From IMG/VR virus record IMGVR_UViG_3300007541_000167, positions 1 to 26,819 of that record: a stretch of DNA of 26,819 nt; one strand, given 5' to 3'. Under the pieces are notes generated by a model. It was not told the origin of the DNA. It worked only from the letters and a program-made list of their open reading frames with translations, and searched no databases. The number at the start of each line of letters is the position of its first letter. The first letter of the stretch is position 1. Origin of the DNA: a virus. Positions 5,786 to 26,441 of the stretch are shown here, one piece after another. The position numbers and the translations under genes were made by a program.

Positions 5786-7600
5786 TTATATCACCACATT
5801 ATAATTTAATTTTGAATATAAAACATAAAAATTATCAGGATTGGATGAAGGTATCATAGGAACATCTGTTGGTGTTGGCGGTGCCTGAGGAGATTCCTGC
5901 GGCGCCTGTGGTTGCTGAGCGACTACAACATTTGGTGCAGGTTCTTCAAGAGGTGCAATTGACTGTGGCGAAGTCATTTTTTCTTGTGAAGGATTTATAA
6001 AATCGAATGATAAATTTTTAGATATATTAAAAATATTTGATGTATCGCCAGATGATACTTCTTGAGTGGATGGAGAAGTTAATTCTGCAGGTTGCGCTTT
6101 TTCATTTTGCGGTGATATAGATTCTGCTTTAATTTCAGCAGCAGGCGTAGCACTTTCAGTATTCATTTTAGATTCACTACCCAAAGAAAGTTTCAATTCT
6201 TCAGGTTGAGGCATCATAGTATTTTTTGGTTCCGCAGCATCTTTACCAGTTTCAACTGGCTCTGTTTGGGATTTTATTGGACCTAATTGTTCAGAAGATT
6301 CTGCTGCTTTTGGTGGAGCACCAGTCATTGTCTGTGTTGGTGTAGAAGTTGCTACCGGTGGTTGTTTAGTATTTTGCTGTGGTTGAGTTGAAGTATCTTC
6401 CTTTTTCTTTCCCAATCCAAATGTCCAATCAAAACCACCACCAGAATCTTCTTCTTTTCCTTTTACTAACTCTTTACTTTTCTGCTGTGCCCATATTCCA
6501 GCACCAATCACTGCCAAAGGTTTTAAAAGTCCAGGCAGTGGTAATTTTGATGCTGCTCCTGCAGCTGCAGCACTACCAAGTCCACCAACAGCAGCTGTCG
6601 CAGGGTCTTCTCCAAAAGCAATATCCAATCCTGCTGTAAGTCCTGCTCCACCTAAAAGTTTTGCACCTCCACCCAAAACACCTTTACCAAAATTTTTCAT
6701 TCCACCCCAAAAACCACCACCAGAACTTGCCGATGGTTTTCCCCCAGAAGAAGGTGTACTTGTACTTGAAGGTGAAGTAGAACCCTTTCCAGATGATGTG
6801 GATGATGTAGAGGAAGCAGAAGAATCTGCGGAAGAAGCGGCACTAACCCTAGACGATTTTCCCCCACCAATTCCACTAAAAAGACCAGAAAAAATTCCAC
6901 CAATTTTTGATGCGCCAGAAGTAAATATATTTTTTATCCCACCAAAAAGAAGTCCTGCAACTCCCCCAATTAATTTTCTTAACGCAAATTTAATAGCAGC
7001 AAATCCGGTCTTAATTGCTATAAATGTGCCAATAACAAAACCAACATTCTTAATGACATTATCTTTTATTTCGTTTAATGTTTTTTGGTCATCTTCGGAA
7101 TATGCTTTTATTGTTTTTAAAAGTTGTACCCCAAGATATCCAAAGAATAAAGTTTGAATTGCTCTTCCAACATTAGCAAAAACACCTTCAACTTTTTTTG
7201 CTGCAGAATCAACAGGTGCCATTATGGCAGTTTGAATTCTTTCTTCCAGTCTTGATTCTCTACCTAATCTTATTCTTCTTTGAGCATATCTATTTTCTTG
7301 TTCTTGCTGTTGCTTTAATAATTGCTGCTCAGTTAATGTATCCTTTTGAAGAAGTGCGGCAATATTATTAATACTCTGAGAAAGAGCATTAAGTTGATTT
7401 TGAAAATTCTGAAACTGTTGCTGCATATTTGCAATAACAGTTTGATTTTGTTTTTGTGTCTGAACAAATTGTTTAGTTTGCTCAACAAATTGTTGCTTTT
7501 CAGTTGATGCTGCCTGAACATTAGGGGCTGCCCCACCACCAAAGACAGATGCTCCTACATTTTTTATTGATAGACCACTTGGTAGTAAAGGTACAGCCAT
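5786..7600 (-). CDS. Tape-measure-like tail protein (position of T4 gp29)
   Basis: 604 aa. Residues about 30-115 form a Gln/Asn-rich coiled-coil-like helix, followed by an Arg-rich patch (YAQRRIRLGRESRLEER), then hydrophobic helices about 140-245 (TLFFGYLGVQLLKTI, NVGFVIGTFIAIKTGF). A Ser/Gly/Thr linker leads to a Gly/Ala-rich hydrophobic stretch about 300-375, and the last 200 residues are Pro/Gln/Glu-rich low complexity. T4 gp29 (590 aa) sets tail length and is part of the hub; this protein has similar length and composition and lies just after the gp26 and 58-aa pair, where tape-measure genes sit in most tailed phages. I see no enzymatic motif. The following gene starts 1 nt after the stop. 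Alternative: another hub protein of unknown role. Confidence 0.55.
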   Translation of the reverse strand: MAVPLLPSGLSIKNVGASVFGGGAAPNVQAASTEKQQFVEQTKQFVQTQKQNQTVIANMQQQFQNFQNQLNALSQSINNIAALLQKDTLTEQQLLKQQQEQENRYAQRRIRLGRESRLEERIQTAIMAPVDSAAKKVEGVFANVGRAIQTLFFGYLGVQLLKTIKAYSEDDQKTLNEIKDNVIKNVGFVIGTFIAIKTGFAAIKFALRKLIGGVAGLLFGGIKNIFTSGASKIGGIFSGLFSGIGGGKSSRVSAASSADSSASSTSSTSSGKGSTSPSSTSTPSSGGKPSASSGGGFWGGMKNFGKGVLGGGAKLLGGAGLTAGLDIAFGEDPATAAVGGLGSAAAAGAASKLPLPGLLKPLAVIGAGIWAQQKSKELVKGKEEDSGGGFDWTFGLGKKKEDTSTQPQQNTKQPPVATSTPTQTMTGAPPKAAESSEQLGPIKSQTEPVETGKDAAEPKNTMMPQPEELKLSLGSESKMNTESATPAAEIKAESISPQNEKAQPAELTSPSTQEVSSGDTSNIFNISKNLSFDFINPSQEKMTSPQSIAPLEEPAPNVVVAQQPQAPQESPQAPPTPTDVPMIPSSNPDNFYVLYSKLNYNVVI

Positions 7601-7604
7601 TTAC

Positions 7605-7781
7605 TTATGAAACCCCGCTTTTATGCTTTAAATTTTCTTCTTCAATATATTGTTGAAGTAATGTAACATAAACTTCTTTTTCCCAAGGTATCATATTTTC
7701 AATCTCTGTCAAAGAGTATTTATGATGTTGAACTAGTGCAAAATTAACTTGATAATATGATGCAAGACTCTCATGCACCAT
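7605..7781 (-). CDS. 58-aa tail assembly protein, candidate second half of a gp26 frameshift fusion
   Basis: 58 aa, beginning MVHESLASYYQVNFALVQHH, with the core YSLTEIENMIPWEKEVYVTL and a charged helical end (QQYIEEENLKHKS). Short helical peptides with a Pro-Trp-x-x-x-x-x-Tyr core and Glu-rich end occur as the T half of tail assembly chaperones; this resemblance is from memory, not a search. In T4 the gene after 26 is 51, so a gp51-like role is an alternative, though T4 gp51 is much longer (249 aa). The ATG lies 3 nt past the gp26 stop in the -1 frame relative to gp26, and that frame is open back through the gp26 end, so the protein may be made as a gp26 fusion, from its own ATG, or both. 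No clear ribosome site precedes the ATG. Confidence 0.75.
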   Translation of the reverse strand: MVHESLASYYQVNFALVQHHKYSLTEIENMIPWEKEVYVTLLQQYIEEENLKHKSGVS

Positions 7782-7796
7782 AGCTAGGCGAAAAAA
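7757..7796 (-). promoter_or_regulatory. Candidate -1 programmed ribosomal frameshift signal
   Basis: In the gp26 reading frame the mRNA ends TCT TTT TTC GCC TAG. The heptamer T-TTT-TTC (7796-7790) fits the X-XXY-YYZ rule for -1 slippage. An 8-nt spacer (GCCTAGCT) is followed by an 8-bp hairpin: ATGGTGCA (7781-7774) pairs with TGCATCAT (7764-7757) with one G-U pair and a 9-nt loop. After slipping, the ribosome reads CGC CTA GCT ATG and continues into the 58-aa ORF without a stop, giving a fusion of about 298 aa. All three parts are seen directly; function is inferred. Confidence 0.65.
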
Positions 7797-8500
7797 GATG
7801 AAAGACCCTCCAACACTACAGTGCTTTTTACATTAGTTTTAGGATTTGTTACCTTAATTTCATGACTTAATTTTGGCATAGTCTCAAAGAAAGATTCAAC
7901 TTTTCTAAATTGCTGTGGACTTAACTGCTCAATAAATTCTGCCAATTCTTTTTTCGTACATTCTGCTGCAGACCAAGATTCTTCCTTATTGTAAACTTGA
8001 TCAATACTTGAATAGATTAATTCAAAAGTATCATTAATACTATAATCTTCCCCAACAAAATTATTTTTTATAAACTGATCCATTGATGGGTATTTTAATC
8101 TAAGTGTCAAATCATCATCAAGTTTAATGTCTCTAGAGTGTTTAGGATCAATTTTGACTTTAATATCATCCAAATTGATTTCCATAGGAACTTTTGTTAC
8201 ACCATCGTCTGGACAGGTAATCAATACCTCAACAGTTTCACCGACAGATTTCCCCCGAATATTCAAAAATAAGTATTCAATATCAAATGATGATAATTCA
8301 TTAACTTTAACCCCTCTTGTTAAAATACAATTTGAAATAACATCTTTAACTGCATTTGTTATTTGTTGGGGGTCTTCACTTTCCTGTGCAATAATTAAAA
8401 TTTTCTCTTCTTTAACTAAAAAAGGTCTAAACTTTATTTTTTTATTATTTGATGGAATAGTCAACTCATATGTTGGAGTTGCAATTTTTGGTAATGGCAT
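7784..8500 (-). CDS. gp26: gp26-like baseplate hub / tail assembly protein
   Basis: 238 aa (T4 gp26 is 208 aa). The N-terminus (MPLPKIATPTYELTIPSN, then KIKFRPFLVKEEKIL) and the segment ISNCILTRGVKVNELSSFDI match what I know of the T4 gp26 family (Pfam T4_baseplate). The known role is in assembly of the baseplate hub. A late-promoter-like AATAAATA lies 22 nt before the ATG, inside the end of the upstream gene. The last sense codons are TCT TTT TTC GCC before TAG, containing a slippery U-UUU-UUC heptamer; see the separate regulatory entry. Placed upstream of a tape-measure-like gene and followed by a small -1-frame ORF, it may be the G-like half of a tail assembly chaperone pair. Family call is good; the chaperone role is inference. 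Confidence 0.8.
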   Translation of the reverse strand: MPLPKIATPTYELTIPSNNKKIKFRPFLVKEEKILIIAQESEDPQQITNAVKDVISNCILTRGVKVNELSSFDIEYLFLNIRGKSVGETVEVLITCPDDGVTKVPMEINLDDIKVKIDPKHSRDIKLDDDLTLRLKYPSMDQFIKNNFVGEDYSINDTFELIYSSIDQVYNKEESWSAAECTKKELAEFIEQLSPQQFRKVESFFETMPKLSHEIKVTNPKTNVKSTVVLEGLSSFFA

Positions 8501-8522: not shown

Positions 8523-8530
8523 TATTTATT
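8523..8530 (-). promoter_or_regulatory. T4-late-type promoter upstream of gp26
   Basis: AATAAATA on the minus strand, close to the T4 late consensus TATAAATA recognised by the gp55/gp33 polymerase, 22 nt before the gp26 start. It overlaps the end of the gp54-like gene. Confidence 0.5.
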
Positions 8531-9284
8531 ATCTTAATAGCGTACCTAAATCACCAAGATTATTAGAAATTTGACTAACAATATCTACACTATCACTTCT
8601 TCCAGGAATATATCTATCATATGAAAATGTTACATAAATTTTTAATATTTGCGAATCACTATAACTAACTTGCACTGGTTGAATTGCTTCTGGAAATAAT
8701 CCCTCAAAAGTATATGATATTTGTCTTTTATAATCTCTATCAAATTTATAAATTCTAGTTTTATTTGATTTATACTTTTCCGGATACTTTATTCTTGTAA
8801 AATAATCTTGGTCATTAATGGAATCAATACTACCAATTCCATATGAACCACTACTTATAAATTCCAACCAAGTTTCAAAAAACAATAAAGATTTATATTT
8901 TTTATCAACATAAAATCCCATTCCTATAGTATTGCCATAATCATTTCTAGCGTGGGCAAATTTTTCAACCATTCCAGTCCTATGACCAAATGCCTCAAAT
9001 GTAGCAACACTAGTTCCTGGAAGATTTGCTTCGTAACAAAGAAGACCCAAATCTTGTGTAATAAATTCATTACTTATATTTTTTGCTGCCATATACGAAG
9101 TCAATTCCCCGGATGGAATAGAAAATTGAACTTCATAATGAGAAGTTTGTGCCAGATTGCGGAATAAATTGGCAAAATCGCTTATTGTAGTTCTATCTCC
9201 TGGTGATTTATTATTCTTCCATACACCAGATTTTTCTCCACCTTTTCCAAAATCTTTTCTTCTTCCTGGTCCTTGTACGGCCAT
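8529..9284 (-). CDS. Tail-tube-like protein, probably gp54 baseplate tail tube initiator
   Basis: 251 aa. The first 25 residues are basic and Gly-rich (MAVQGPGRRKDFGKGGEKSG). The rest looks like the gp19/gp54 tube fold: SHYEVQFSIP, LGLLCYEANLPGTSVATFEA, a GHRTGMVEKFAHARNDYGN loop, FYVDKKYKSLLFFETWLEF, and a closing strand QILKIYVTFSYDRY. T4 gp54 (320 aa) starts the tail tube on the baseplate and is homologous to the tube protein gp19. Next to gp26 and diverging from the gp4-gp48-gp53 block, gp54 is the best fit; a tube protein paralogue is the alternative. No clear ribosome site or promoter was found in the 35-nt divergent gap on this strand. Confidence 0.6.
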   Translation of the reverse strand: MAVQGPGRRKDFGKGGEKSGVWKNNKSPGDRTTISDFANLFRNLAQTSHYEVQFSIPSGELTSYMAAKNISNEFITQDLGLLCYEANLPGTSVATFEAFGHRTGMVEKFAHARNDYGNTIGMGFYVDKKYKSLLFFETWLEFISSGSYGIGSIDSINDQDYFTRIKYPEKYKSNKTRIYKFDRDYKRQISYTFEGLFPEAIQPVQVSYSDSQILKIYVTFSYDRYIPGRSDSVDIVSQISNNLGDLGTLLR

Positions 9285-17660: not shown

Positions 17661-17987
17661 TTACCTTTCAATATAACTAAGGGTATGGTCTGTGGCACAA
17701 AGCTGGTGAATAATTATGTCACATCCAATCTTTGGATTGCAATCGCCACAGGTATAAACATCTACTGCTGCTTTACCCTCTTCTGGCCAAGTGTGAATAC
17801 TAATATGACTCTCTGAGAGTAAGCACAAAACTGTAACTCCTTGTGGGTCAAACTTTTTTGATATCGTTTGACATACTGTTGCTCCACTTGCTGCAGCAGC
17901 ATTTTCCAGCAAGTCAATAAGAAGGTGTTCATCGTTCAAAAGAACAAATGAACACCCATACAAGTTAAGTAAATAATGCTTACCCAT
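17661..17987 (-). CDS. speD: S-adenosylmethionine decarboxylase proenzyme
   Basis: 108 aa, the length of the short prokaryotic SpeD type. The self-cleavage motif is LLSESHISIHTWPE, with cleavage expected between Glu59 and Ser60 and Ser60 becoming the pyruvoyl group; His65 is in the same stretch. The CGDCNP segment (Cys80) and YLLNLYGCSF start are typical. The enzyme decarboxylates S-adenosylmethionine to supply aminopropyl groups for polyamines, which can help DNA packaging or host photosystem stability. It is a known cyanophage auxiliary gene. It is the last gene of a minus-strand run, 6 nt after the 126-aa gene, with a hairpin behind it. Confidence 0.93.
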   Translation of the reverse strand: MGKHYLLNLYGCSFVLLNDEHLLIDLLENAAAASGATVCQTISKKFDPQGVTVLCLLSESHISIHTWPEEGKAAVDVYTCGDCNPKIGCDIIIHQLCATDHTLSYIER

Positions 17988-19223: not shown

Positions 19224-19400
19224 CTACTTGTTCTTCCTGATATTCAGGGAAAATTCAAATTTGATGGTAACTTCCCGTTTTAGAAAGCTAACCACCTTGT
19301 TTACATTAATGTGGCAGGTTTTTGGTTGCTTTCTTTTTCCTCCATTAAGAAACAATTCAAGTCCACGATTAACCTGGATATTTTTATTTAGGTCTGTCAT
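19224..19400 (-). CDS. 58-aa basic protein, function unknown
   Basis: 58 aa: MTDLNKNIQVNRGLELFLNG, then GKRKQPKTCHINVNKVVSFL and KREVTIKFEFSLNIRKNK. Its start overlaps the glutaredoxin stop (TAATG), which supports it as real although it is short. It is basic and ends in an alternating beta-strand-like run (VTIKFEFSLNI). A CTAAATA motif lies inside its own fourth codon region and is read as coincidence. No function recognised. Confidence 0.65.
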   Translation of the reverse strand: MTDLNKNIQVNRGLELFLNGGKRKQPKTCHINVNKVVSFLKREVTIKFEFSLNIRKNK

Positions 19401-19636
19401 TAAACGATTTTCTGTTCTTTTAAAAATCTAATAGTGTCACTACAACCACCCAATTTTTGTTCGCCACAGACAACTTGTGGGAAAGTTGCACCGTCACCAA
19501 ACTTTGAATAAAATTCCATTTTTGTAAAATCTTTTCCCATTTTATACTCAATAACATTTTGTTTAGATAACCTAAGAACATCCTTTATTTTTATACAATA
19601 AGGACACCCCTCTTTAGAATAAACCGCAAAATTCAT
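19400..19636 (-). CDS. Glutaredoxin
   Basis: 78 aa with the CPYC dithiol active site at Cys11-Cys14 in YSKEGCPYCIKIKD, a TFPQVVCGEQKLGGCSD stretch holding the cis-Pro and glutathione-binding Gly-Gly, and the usual small thioredoxin-fold length. It reduces disulfides or ribonucleotide reductase at the cost of glutathione, fitting nucleotide supply for phage DNA. It lies 2 nt after the glycosyltransferase fusion gene and overlaps the 58-aa gene. Corresponds to nrdC-type genes of T4-like phages, though orthology is not shown. Confidence 0.93.
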   Translation of the reverse strand: MNFAVYSKEGCPYCIKIKDVLRLSKQNVIEYKMGKDFTKMEFYSKFGDGATFPQVVCGEQKLGGCSDTIRFLKEQKIV

Positions 19637-24941: not shown

Positions 24942-25038
24942 TGTAATAATCCTTAACAACAGACTTATTTAGAAAGAGATTGGGCCAAGTATCTCTAATG
25001 ATTTCTGCCAGTTTATAGGGTGTTTCTGAATTAATCAT
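24904..25038 (-). CDS. Possible 44-aa gene overlapping talC and the hydrolase
   Basis: 44 aa: [20 protein letters not shown], then LFLNKSVVKDYYNGLLKRDC and SKKK. Its ATG sits in the end of talC (ATGATTAA, 8-nt overlap), and its end overlaps the hydrolase start by 38 nt. It occupies the only gap here and looks like an amphipathic, basic peptide. Overlap with the late-type promoter motif and the next start lowers confidence. No function recognised. Confidence 0.4.
   Translation of the reverse strand: MINSETPYKLAEIIRDTWPNLFLNKSVVKDYYNGLLKRDCSKKK
24966..24972 (-). promoter_or_regulatory. T4-late-type promoter upstream of the hydrolase
   Basis: CTAAATA on the minus strand, 24 nt before the chosen ATG, identical to the motif in front of gp4. 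It also supports the ATG over the upstream TTG, which lies only 6 nt after the motif. Confidence 0.55.
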
Positions 25039-25705
25039 TCCTAAATTTCAGTGCTTCCTCATAATCTTTCTGAAAGATTTCAAGACCCTTATCAGTCATA
25101 ATGTTCTTATACATCTTCCAGAATACTAGTGGTGGAATTGTCACAATATCAGTTCCAGCAAGAGCAGCCTTCTCTACTTGATAAACATCACGAATAGATG
25201 CTCCAAGGATTTGAGGAGTAACCTTTTTCCACCAAGAAGAGTTATCAAAAGTCTTGCGAATATTCTTGATAAGTTCAATGCCATCAACAGAGTTATCAAA
25301 CCATCTACCAACAAATGGTGAGATGTAAGTTGCTCCTGCTTTACCAGCAAGAATTGCCTGAGCAACAGAGAACACCAGGGTTACGTTAGTTTTTTTTCCA
25401 GTGGTTGAGAGTTGCCTACAAGCATTAAGACCTTCTACAGTGCAAGGAACTTTGATAGTAACCGATGGGGCAATTGAGTAATACCTCTGTGCCTGCATAA
25501 GCATCTCCCCAGCAGTATCACCCACAACTTCAGCAGAGATACTTTCAAGTTGTGGACACTTATCATAAATTTCCTTTACTACATCAAGAAGTTCCCTACC
25601 ACTTTTTAGAATAAGAGATGGATTAGTAGTCACTCCATCAATCAGTCCAGTATTATAAGCGGGGACGATTTGGTCAATATCAGCAGTATCTAGAAAGATT
25701 TTCAA
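25031..25705 (-). CDS. talC: Transaldolase (TalC type) with TTG start
   Basis: 224 aa, the short TalC/fructose-6-phosphate-aldolase-like form typical of cyanophages. Motifs: [38 protein letters not shown] with the Schiff-base lysine in the IKVP stretch, [20 protein letters not shown], and a QILGASIR strand near 165-172. It moves three-carbon units in the pentose phosphate pathway and pushes host carbon towards NADPH and ribose. The start is TTG; the AGGAGG ribosome site 7-8 nt upstream is perfect, and the next in-frame Met lies far inside, so TTG is well supported. The start overlaps the petF stop by 4 nt, so expression is coupled. Confidence 0.92.
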
Positions 25706-25992
25706 AGATTTTCCTCCTGTTCAGTTTCAATTACACAATCAGATTTTGGATAAGCAACACAGAGCATTGTGAATCCAGCAGCAAGTTGGTCATCGTCAAG
25801 GAACGATTGTTCCTCATTATCAACTTCACCACTGATTACTTTGCCCGCACAAGAAGAGCAAGCACCAGCACGACAAGAATAAGGGAGGTCAACTCCAGCT
25901 TCGTCTGCTGCTTCAAGAATATATTGGTCTTCAGGACATTGAATAACTTGTTCAGTTCCATCGGGAGAACGAAGAGTAATAGAATAAGTCAT
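25702..25992 (-). CDS. petF: Plant-type [2Fe-2S] ferredoxin
   Basis: 96 aa. Cluster ligands are Cys40, Cys45, Cys48 ([13 protein letters not shown]) and Cys78 (TMLCVAYP), the C-x4-C-x2-C-x29-C order of photosynthetic ferredoxins. It carries electrons from photosystem I, or serves phage reductases such as bilin reductases. It is a known cyanophage auxiliary gene. It lies 3 nt after the 40-aa membrane gene and overlaps talC. Its last codons contain the talC ribosome site. Confidence 0.95.
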
Positions 25993-25995
25993 AGT

Positions 25996-26118
25996 TCAGT
26001 TAGTGTGATTTTTGTTGTTTTTAGTTACAGTATAGGCATAAATCATTGAGGCAACTCCCCCAACGATTGCGAGACAGCATACAAACATATGAATATAGTC
26101 GTTGTGATTGTGATGCAT
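25996..26118 (-). CDS. 40-aa His-rich single-pass membrane peptide
   Basis: 40 aa: MHHNHNDYIHMFVCCLAIVG then GVASMIYAYTVTKNNKNHTN. A hydrophobic helix spans about 11-31. The first ten residues hold four His, and three Lys/His residues follow the helix. Its ATG overlaps the petE stop (TAATG), and ferredoxin begins 3 nt after it, so it is co-translated with both. Too short for usual callers. Function unknown; position between plastocyanin and ferredoxin points to the thylakoid membrane, which is inference. Confidence 0.65.
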   Translation of the reverse strand: MHHNHNDYIHMFVCCLAIVGGVASMIYAYTVTKNNKNHTN

Positions 26119-26441
26119 TATGAGACGTGAATAGTAGCAACCATTCCAGCACCTTTATGAGGACCACACCAATAAGTGTAATCTCCAGGTTCTGTGAATG
26201 TAATATCAAAACTTTCTCCAGGGGAGAACAAAAGTCCATCGTGAGAAAGTTCTGGATGGTCTTCAACAATCACATTATGTGGTGGTAGCATACCATTTAC
26301 AAAATGAACTGTTTCTCCAACAGCAATTGTAGTATCTGCGGGTTCAAAGACCAAGTTACCATTACTTCCCATAGTAATGTCTAATGCCCAAGAAGGAAGT
26401 GCAAAAAATAAGGACGCAAATAAAACGATAAGAAACTTCAT
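26118..26441 (-). CDS. petE: Plastocyanin with signal peptide
   Basis: 107 aa. Signal peptide at 1-19 (MKFLIVLFASLFFALPSWA), cleavage likely after SWA. The mature part has the copper ligands of plastocyanin: His in MLPPHNVIVE, and Cys, His and Met in YWCGPHKGAGM. It carries electrons from cytochrome b6f to photosystem I in the thylakoid lumen. It is a known cyanophage auxiliary gene. First gene of the petE-40 aa-petF-talC run. A 73-nt spacer before it holds no clear consensus promoter; the ATG has no obvious ribosome site. Confidence 0.95.
   Translation of the reverse strand: MKFLIVLFASLFFALPSWALDITMGSNGNLVFEPADTTIAVGETVHFVNGMLPPHNVIVEDHPELSHDGLLFSPGESFDITFTEPGDYTYWCGPHKGAGMVATIHVS

Follow-up and report, generated by a model that had tools for sequence, protein, structure and literature searches.

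A conserved −1 frameshift site at the end of gp26 probably produces short and fused tail assembly chaperones in cyanophage-like relatives of T4

RESULTS

The 3′ end of gp26 in a cyanophage-like genome fragment very probably carries a real, conserved −1 frameshift site. The site lies in the window, a stretch of 26,819 nt comprising positions 1 to 26,819 of IMG/VR record IMGVR_UViG_3300007541_000167. An earlier note had proposed that a −1 programmed frameshift joins gp26 to a 58-aa ORF in the layout of the lambda G/GT tail assembly chaperones. This reading is now strongly supported because of the conservation of the site, synonymous constraint, RNA structure beyond that imposed by coding, ORFs that lack starts, the fused gp51 of T4, and a predicted fold most like that of the HK97 tail assembly chaperone.

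The window shows a tail region of cyanomyovirus type, read on the minus strand, and the features of the gp26 locus are collected in Table 1. The position of the 604-aa gene downstream of gp26 fits a tape measure gene, and its equivalents in some relatives gave weak matches to tape-measure PHROGs; a comparison of T4 gp29 with the 604-aa protein gave no match. The same tail region holds a gene of 684 aa whose PHROG match is endolysin-like. Reading the window by eye, we also noted genes resembling those for plastocyanin (26118-26441), ferredoxin (25702-25992), transaldolase (25031-25705), and S-adenosylmethionine decarboxylase (17661-17987), all host-type metabolic genes that are common in cyanophages.

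Table 1. Positions of features at the gp26 locus of the window
Feature	Position	Strand	Basis or remark
Tail tube / gp54-like protein, upstream (synteny)	8529..9284	-	PF23849 E 1.7e-11; phrog_45 E 2.5e-37
gp26, predicted short chaperone form (TAC-N, lambda G equivalent), 238 aa; stop TAG 7784-7786	7784..8500	-	PF12322 E 5.3e-74; phrog_150 E 8e-79
GGAGG, Shine-Dalgarno-like, ending 10 nt upstream of the heptamer	7807..7811	-	
Slippery heptamer T TTT TTC, in phase	7790..7796	-	
Candidate stimulatory hairpin: spacer 7 nt, stem 9 bp, loop 9 nt	7756..7782	-	RNAfold
−1 frame past the slip, putative C-terminal domain of the long form (gp51, lambda T equivalent), 61 codons plus stop	7605..7790	-	phrog_634 E 3e-27
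58-aa ORF in the customary annotation, with gp51 begun at an ATG of its own	7605..7781	-	Unlikely to be a gene in its own right
Putative tape measure protein, 604 aa, downstream	5786..7600	-	Position; weak tape-measure PHROG matches in relatives

The gp26 reading frame ends in TCT TTT TTC GCC TAG, which puts the heptamer in the X XXY YYZ phase, one codon ahead of the stop, and bears out the in-phase U-UUU-UUC that had been read at the end of the gp26 mRNA. The −1 frame opens 46 nt before the gp26 stop and stays open through the heptamer as far as 7605. That this frame runs without a stop into the 58-aa ORF had also been claimed, and it held for the window as well as for every locus checked. 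A slip to −1 would give FF-RLAMVHESLASYYQ.. and 61 codons to the end of the 58-aa ORF, so that the predicted fusion is 237 + 61 = 298 aa long. By itself the window is weak proof, since TTTTTTC shows no excess over chance (23 observed, 26.7 expected) and the hairpin is ordinary against dinucleotide shuffles (z −1.18). In-phase slippery heptamers number 96, within 36 genes of the window. One case that we noted is an in-phase TTTAAAA, 22 nt ahead of the stop of a glutaredoxin-like gene (by-eye reading, 19224-19636), with 173 nt of open −1 frame beyond; it is probably due to chance.

The evidence for frameshifting is comparative, drawn from the sequences of relatives and not from the single window. 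The earlier note had suggested aligning the 3′ end of gp26 across related phages, and this check found the heptamer, the −1 frame, and the hairpins at the site mostly kept. T TTT TTN was in phase in 209 of 211 related loci, and the −1 frame was open in all. In a 191-locus set of viral contigs and named phages, the in-phase heptamer was present in 190 and the −1 frame open in 191; the last base of the heptamer was C in 181 loci, A in 7, G in 2, and T in 1, and in 187 loci the heptamer stood exactly 10 nt ahead of the stop. All 17 further divergent loci had T TTT TTN with an open −1 frame, and Aeromonas phage AsFcp_2 and Rhizobium phage LG08 also keep the heptamer. Vibrio phages K476 and D504 keep the −1 ORF and lack the canonical heptamer, the only relatives of this kind with a −1 gp51 ORF. 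The gp26 end reads CTT TTT GCG TAA in K476 (L030:3180-3260) and CTT TTC AAG TAA in D504 (L197:3140-3210), both with a TAATG overlap that may suit reinitiation. No member of the K476 lineage was found in viral_contigs.

As some loci were near duplicates, constraint statistics were calculated on 131 non-redundant loci. TTTTTC was used at the heptamer codons in 121 of the 131, versus 6 of 119 other Phe-Phe pairs in the same gene. The codon preceding the heptamer ended in T in every one of the 131 loci, though the amino acid varies, and where that codon encodes Ser it is always AGT or TCT.

Downstream of the heptamer, the earlier note had described an 8-bp hairpin after an 8-nt spacer. The hairpin was recovered by RNAfold at −11 kcal/mol, and the figures were revised to a 9-bp stem and a 7-nt spacer; the structure described earlier is the same hairpin minus its outer pair. 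Across relatives, the 42 nt past the site folded with a mean of −11.1 kcal/mol versus −4.6 kcal/mol for other windows of the gene. Measured against a synonymous-codon null that keeps the −1 peptide and changes its codons, the hairpins gave a mean z of −3.4, with p<0.05 in 109/131 loci. The stem design varies at this same place: about half of the loci share a long stem, and others have compact stems such as GCCCTC/GAGGGC. A single fixed 11-bp stem for every locus was therefore rejected, as it fits only about half of them. In the synonymous-null folding test, a clear hairpin was absent from loci L031, L026, L015, L041, L032, and L083.

Upstream of the heptamer, GGAGG ends at the 10-nt distance seen in the window in 54 of the 131 loci, against 8.1 ± 2.7 expected under a synonymous-codon null. 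Among the relatives scanned at this position, it was missing in the P-HM1-like group and in the Vibrio and Rhizobium phages. In E. coli dnaX, the spacing from Shine-Dalgarno to heptamer is likewise 10 nt. The dnaX signal consists of an internal Shine-Dalgarno, a heptamer, and a stem-loop (PMC5600365, PMC7282821), and the window contains this type of three-part signal in the same order, an upstream internal Shine-Dalgarno-like element, a slippery heptamer, and a downstream stem-loop. The two differ in that the dnaX frameshift, at A AAA AAG, yields the shorter product, whereas a shift at the gp26 site would yield the longer one, and in that the Shine-Dalgarno-like GGAGG of the gp26 site is not found in all lineages.

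We then compared the locus with T4. Both gp26 and gp51 of that phage are listed among the hub assembly chaperones, and gp51 is needed although the virion does not contain it (PMC3004832). T4 genes 26 (208 aa) and 51 (249 aa) are paralogues of PF12322, and both parts of the predicted fusion have homologues in this pair. The gp26 profile matched T4 gp26 (E 3.4e-13). A profile of the −1 ORF aligned with residues 207-244 of T4 gp51 (37% identity, E 2.2e-5) and gave no alignment with T4 gp26; T4 gp51 itself matched phrog_150 over its length and phrog_634 at its C-terminus. By sequence, then, T4 gp26 corresponds to the short form, and T4 gp51 to a gp26 paralogue fused to the same tail. Like T4, phages 44RR2.8t and Klebsiella CP-p-KP-21068 encode the short and the fused form in separate genes and lack the heptamer, whereas cyanophages have only one copy, which bears the frameshift site. 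In the Klebsiella phage (L198:3001-4292), the gene for the fused gp51-like protein and that for the short gp26-like one are arranged in tandem on the same strand, whereas the T4 pair is divergent. In 686 phage records gp26 was present at one copy per record, and no second copy was found in cyanophages at E 1e-5. Our own record, a 26.8-kb fragment, likewise has a single gp26 copy and no separate fused gene as in T4. From the gp26/gp51 homologies and the fused and short gene pairs, T4 uses two genes for the products that cyanophages appear to obtain from one by frameshifting.

Structure prediction gave a gp26 model (AlphaFold2, pLDDT 86.6) that was compared with 961 chains using VIA-align. The HK97 tail assembly chaperone 2ob9 ranked first at Z 7.9, a match that covers only the N-terminal ~84-90 residues and a score, just under 8, that can reflect a common arrangement. 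The next matches were 3fgx (7.7), 3klu (yqbN, 7.2), and 5ir0 (5.0), followed by a gap to 3.8; we take 3fgx and 3klu to be chaperone relatives. Foldseek of the model against the PDB returned nothing significant, with 2ob9 and 3klu among the weak matches, and a sequence search of solved structures returned only caspase and MtrB noise. The N-terminal part of gp26 is thus predicted to have a TAC-like fold. The gp51-domain model was helical (pLDDT 78.6).

DISCUSSION

The gp51 ORF matches phrog_634 ("baseplate hub assembly catalyst"), and the main alternative is that it encodes a small protein of its own, made from its own ATG by termination-reinitiation beside the gp26 stop, with the heptamer incidental. 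Database records do annotate gp51 as a separate small gene, 88 of the 131 loci have an ATG among the seven −1 codons that follow the heptamer, and in Vibrio phages K476 and D504, where a TAATG overlap replaces the heptamer, reinitiation may apply. Against this, the other 43 loci have no ATG among those codons, and the peptide directly after the heptamer (R-[IL]-x-L-x-H..) is conserved even in them. In 24 loci the first ATG is the nineteenth −1 codon or later, within the conserved domain, though some loci without an early ATG have an earlier TTG or GTG. In P-HM1-type phages, the −1 frame has its first ATG at the tenth codon. The ATG in the window (7779-7781) sits in the 5′ arm of the hairpin stem and has no Shine-Dalgarno at a usable distance, the GGAGG being 25 nt away and thus too far to serve as its ribosome binding site. 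Because of the start-less loci, the conserved pre-ATG peptide, and the ATG buried in a stem without a Shine-Dalgarno, independent initiation is unlikely as the main route. Reinitiation would also leave the constraint on the heptamer and the fused T4 gp51 unexplained, and we regard it as improbable overall. Most likely, gp51 is the C-terminal end of a frameshift product and not a gene of its own. In public annotation, gp51 is unannotated in AS-zj and AsFcp_2 and is 34 aa long in C48C1 (loci L031, L026, and L200), as expected if it has no start of its own.

The fusion could also arise before translation, if RNA polymerase slipped on the six-T run and generated a mixed pool of mRNAs. Such slippage is known to occur where a homopolymer run precedes a hairpin, but it is usually weak on six bases, the run stays at six and does not lengthen in nearly all loci, and the bias toward an upstream GGAGG points to the ribosome; we consider this explanation very improbable. 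Finally, an AT-rich gene might simply end in Phe-Phe beside a short overlapping ORF, and the expected frequency of TTTTTTC in the window would agree with that. The heptamer, its phase, its distance from the stop, the open −1 frame, and the hairpin are nevertheless kept across widely diverged phages when set against synonymous nulls, and these comparative data refute chance, the probability of which we judge to be close to nil.

Under translational frameshifting, we infer the slip itself, its frequency, and the roles of both proteins as follows. Most ribosomes translating gp26 would terminate at the TAG, which yields the 238-aa short form. Some would pause on U UUU UUC, aided by the downstream hairpin, probably by pairing of the upstream GGAGG with 16S rRNA, and perhaps also by the stop codon one codon past the heptamer. 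Slipping back by one base, they would enter the −1 frame and produce the 298-aa fusion of gp26 with the gp51 domain. A chaperone role for the gp26 forms is likely, judging from homology and predicted fold. By analogy with lambda G/GT, both forms would act as chaperones that cover the tape measure protein while the tail tube is assembled, with the C-terminal extension of the fusion docking tube subunits.

Xu, Hendrix and Duda reportedly described in 2004 the −1 frameshift in the tail assembly chaperone genes of long-tailed phages, as in lambda G/GT. As there, gp26 is a short ORF with a heptamer near its end and a −1 continuation into a second ORF, it lies between a tail tube gene and a putative tape measure gene, and short and fused products are predicted. 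It differs from lambda G/GT in that PF12322 is longer, with an extra C-terminal half beyond the TAC-like domain, and in its heptamer, U UUU UUC, often with GGAGG upstream.

Frameshifted tail assembly chaperones are an already known kind. The earlier note knew of no description for T4-like gp26, and this claim of novelty falls because passages of two papers refer to Vladimirov, Gautam & Davidson 2022 (Virology 566:9-15) on such genes. The PRFect paper (PMC10885494) gives that work as its source on T4-like phages in which a short gene accompanies a fused one, and the phage Adele paper (PMC12846349) gives it as the source on −1 signals of the poly-T type within TAC-N genes of T4-like phages. Judging from those passages, chaperone genes of T4-like phages that carry poly-T signals are already in print. 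The chaperone locus of the contractile-tailed Vandenendeviridae and Andersonviridae likewise has a −1 frameshift at a poly-T motif, with the −1 frame open in all members (PMC12846349); there the motif is GTTTTT, and these are other phage families than the gp26 relatives. The GGAGG element, the interchangeable hairpins, and the start-less "gp51" ORFs are possibly new. In the open literature we found no paper on the cyanophage site, on GGAGG upstream of it, or on ORFs without a start, although this does not prove that none exists.

Taken as a whole, we tentatively propose that in cyanophage-like T4 relatives a conserved, dnaX-like three-part signal (Shine-Dalgarno-like GGAGG, U UUU UUC, and hairpin) would drive the shift, with the hairpin rebuilt from different stems at a fixed place in different lineages and no separate "gp51" gene, and that T4 may have lost the signal after gene duplication and fusion of one copy. 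This complete scheme is a possibility that we hold well below our confidence in the site itself. The natural variants of the heptamer, spacer, and hairpin offer a ready test set for frameshifting by cyanobacterial and other bacterial ribosomes. For a core tail gene, the finding would correct the annotation of hundreds of marine phage genomes, in which gp51 most likely represents the C-terminal part of a frameshift product, and it would explain T4 gp51, essential and yet not in the virion, as a fused chaperone derived from a former frameshift pair.
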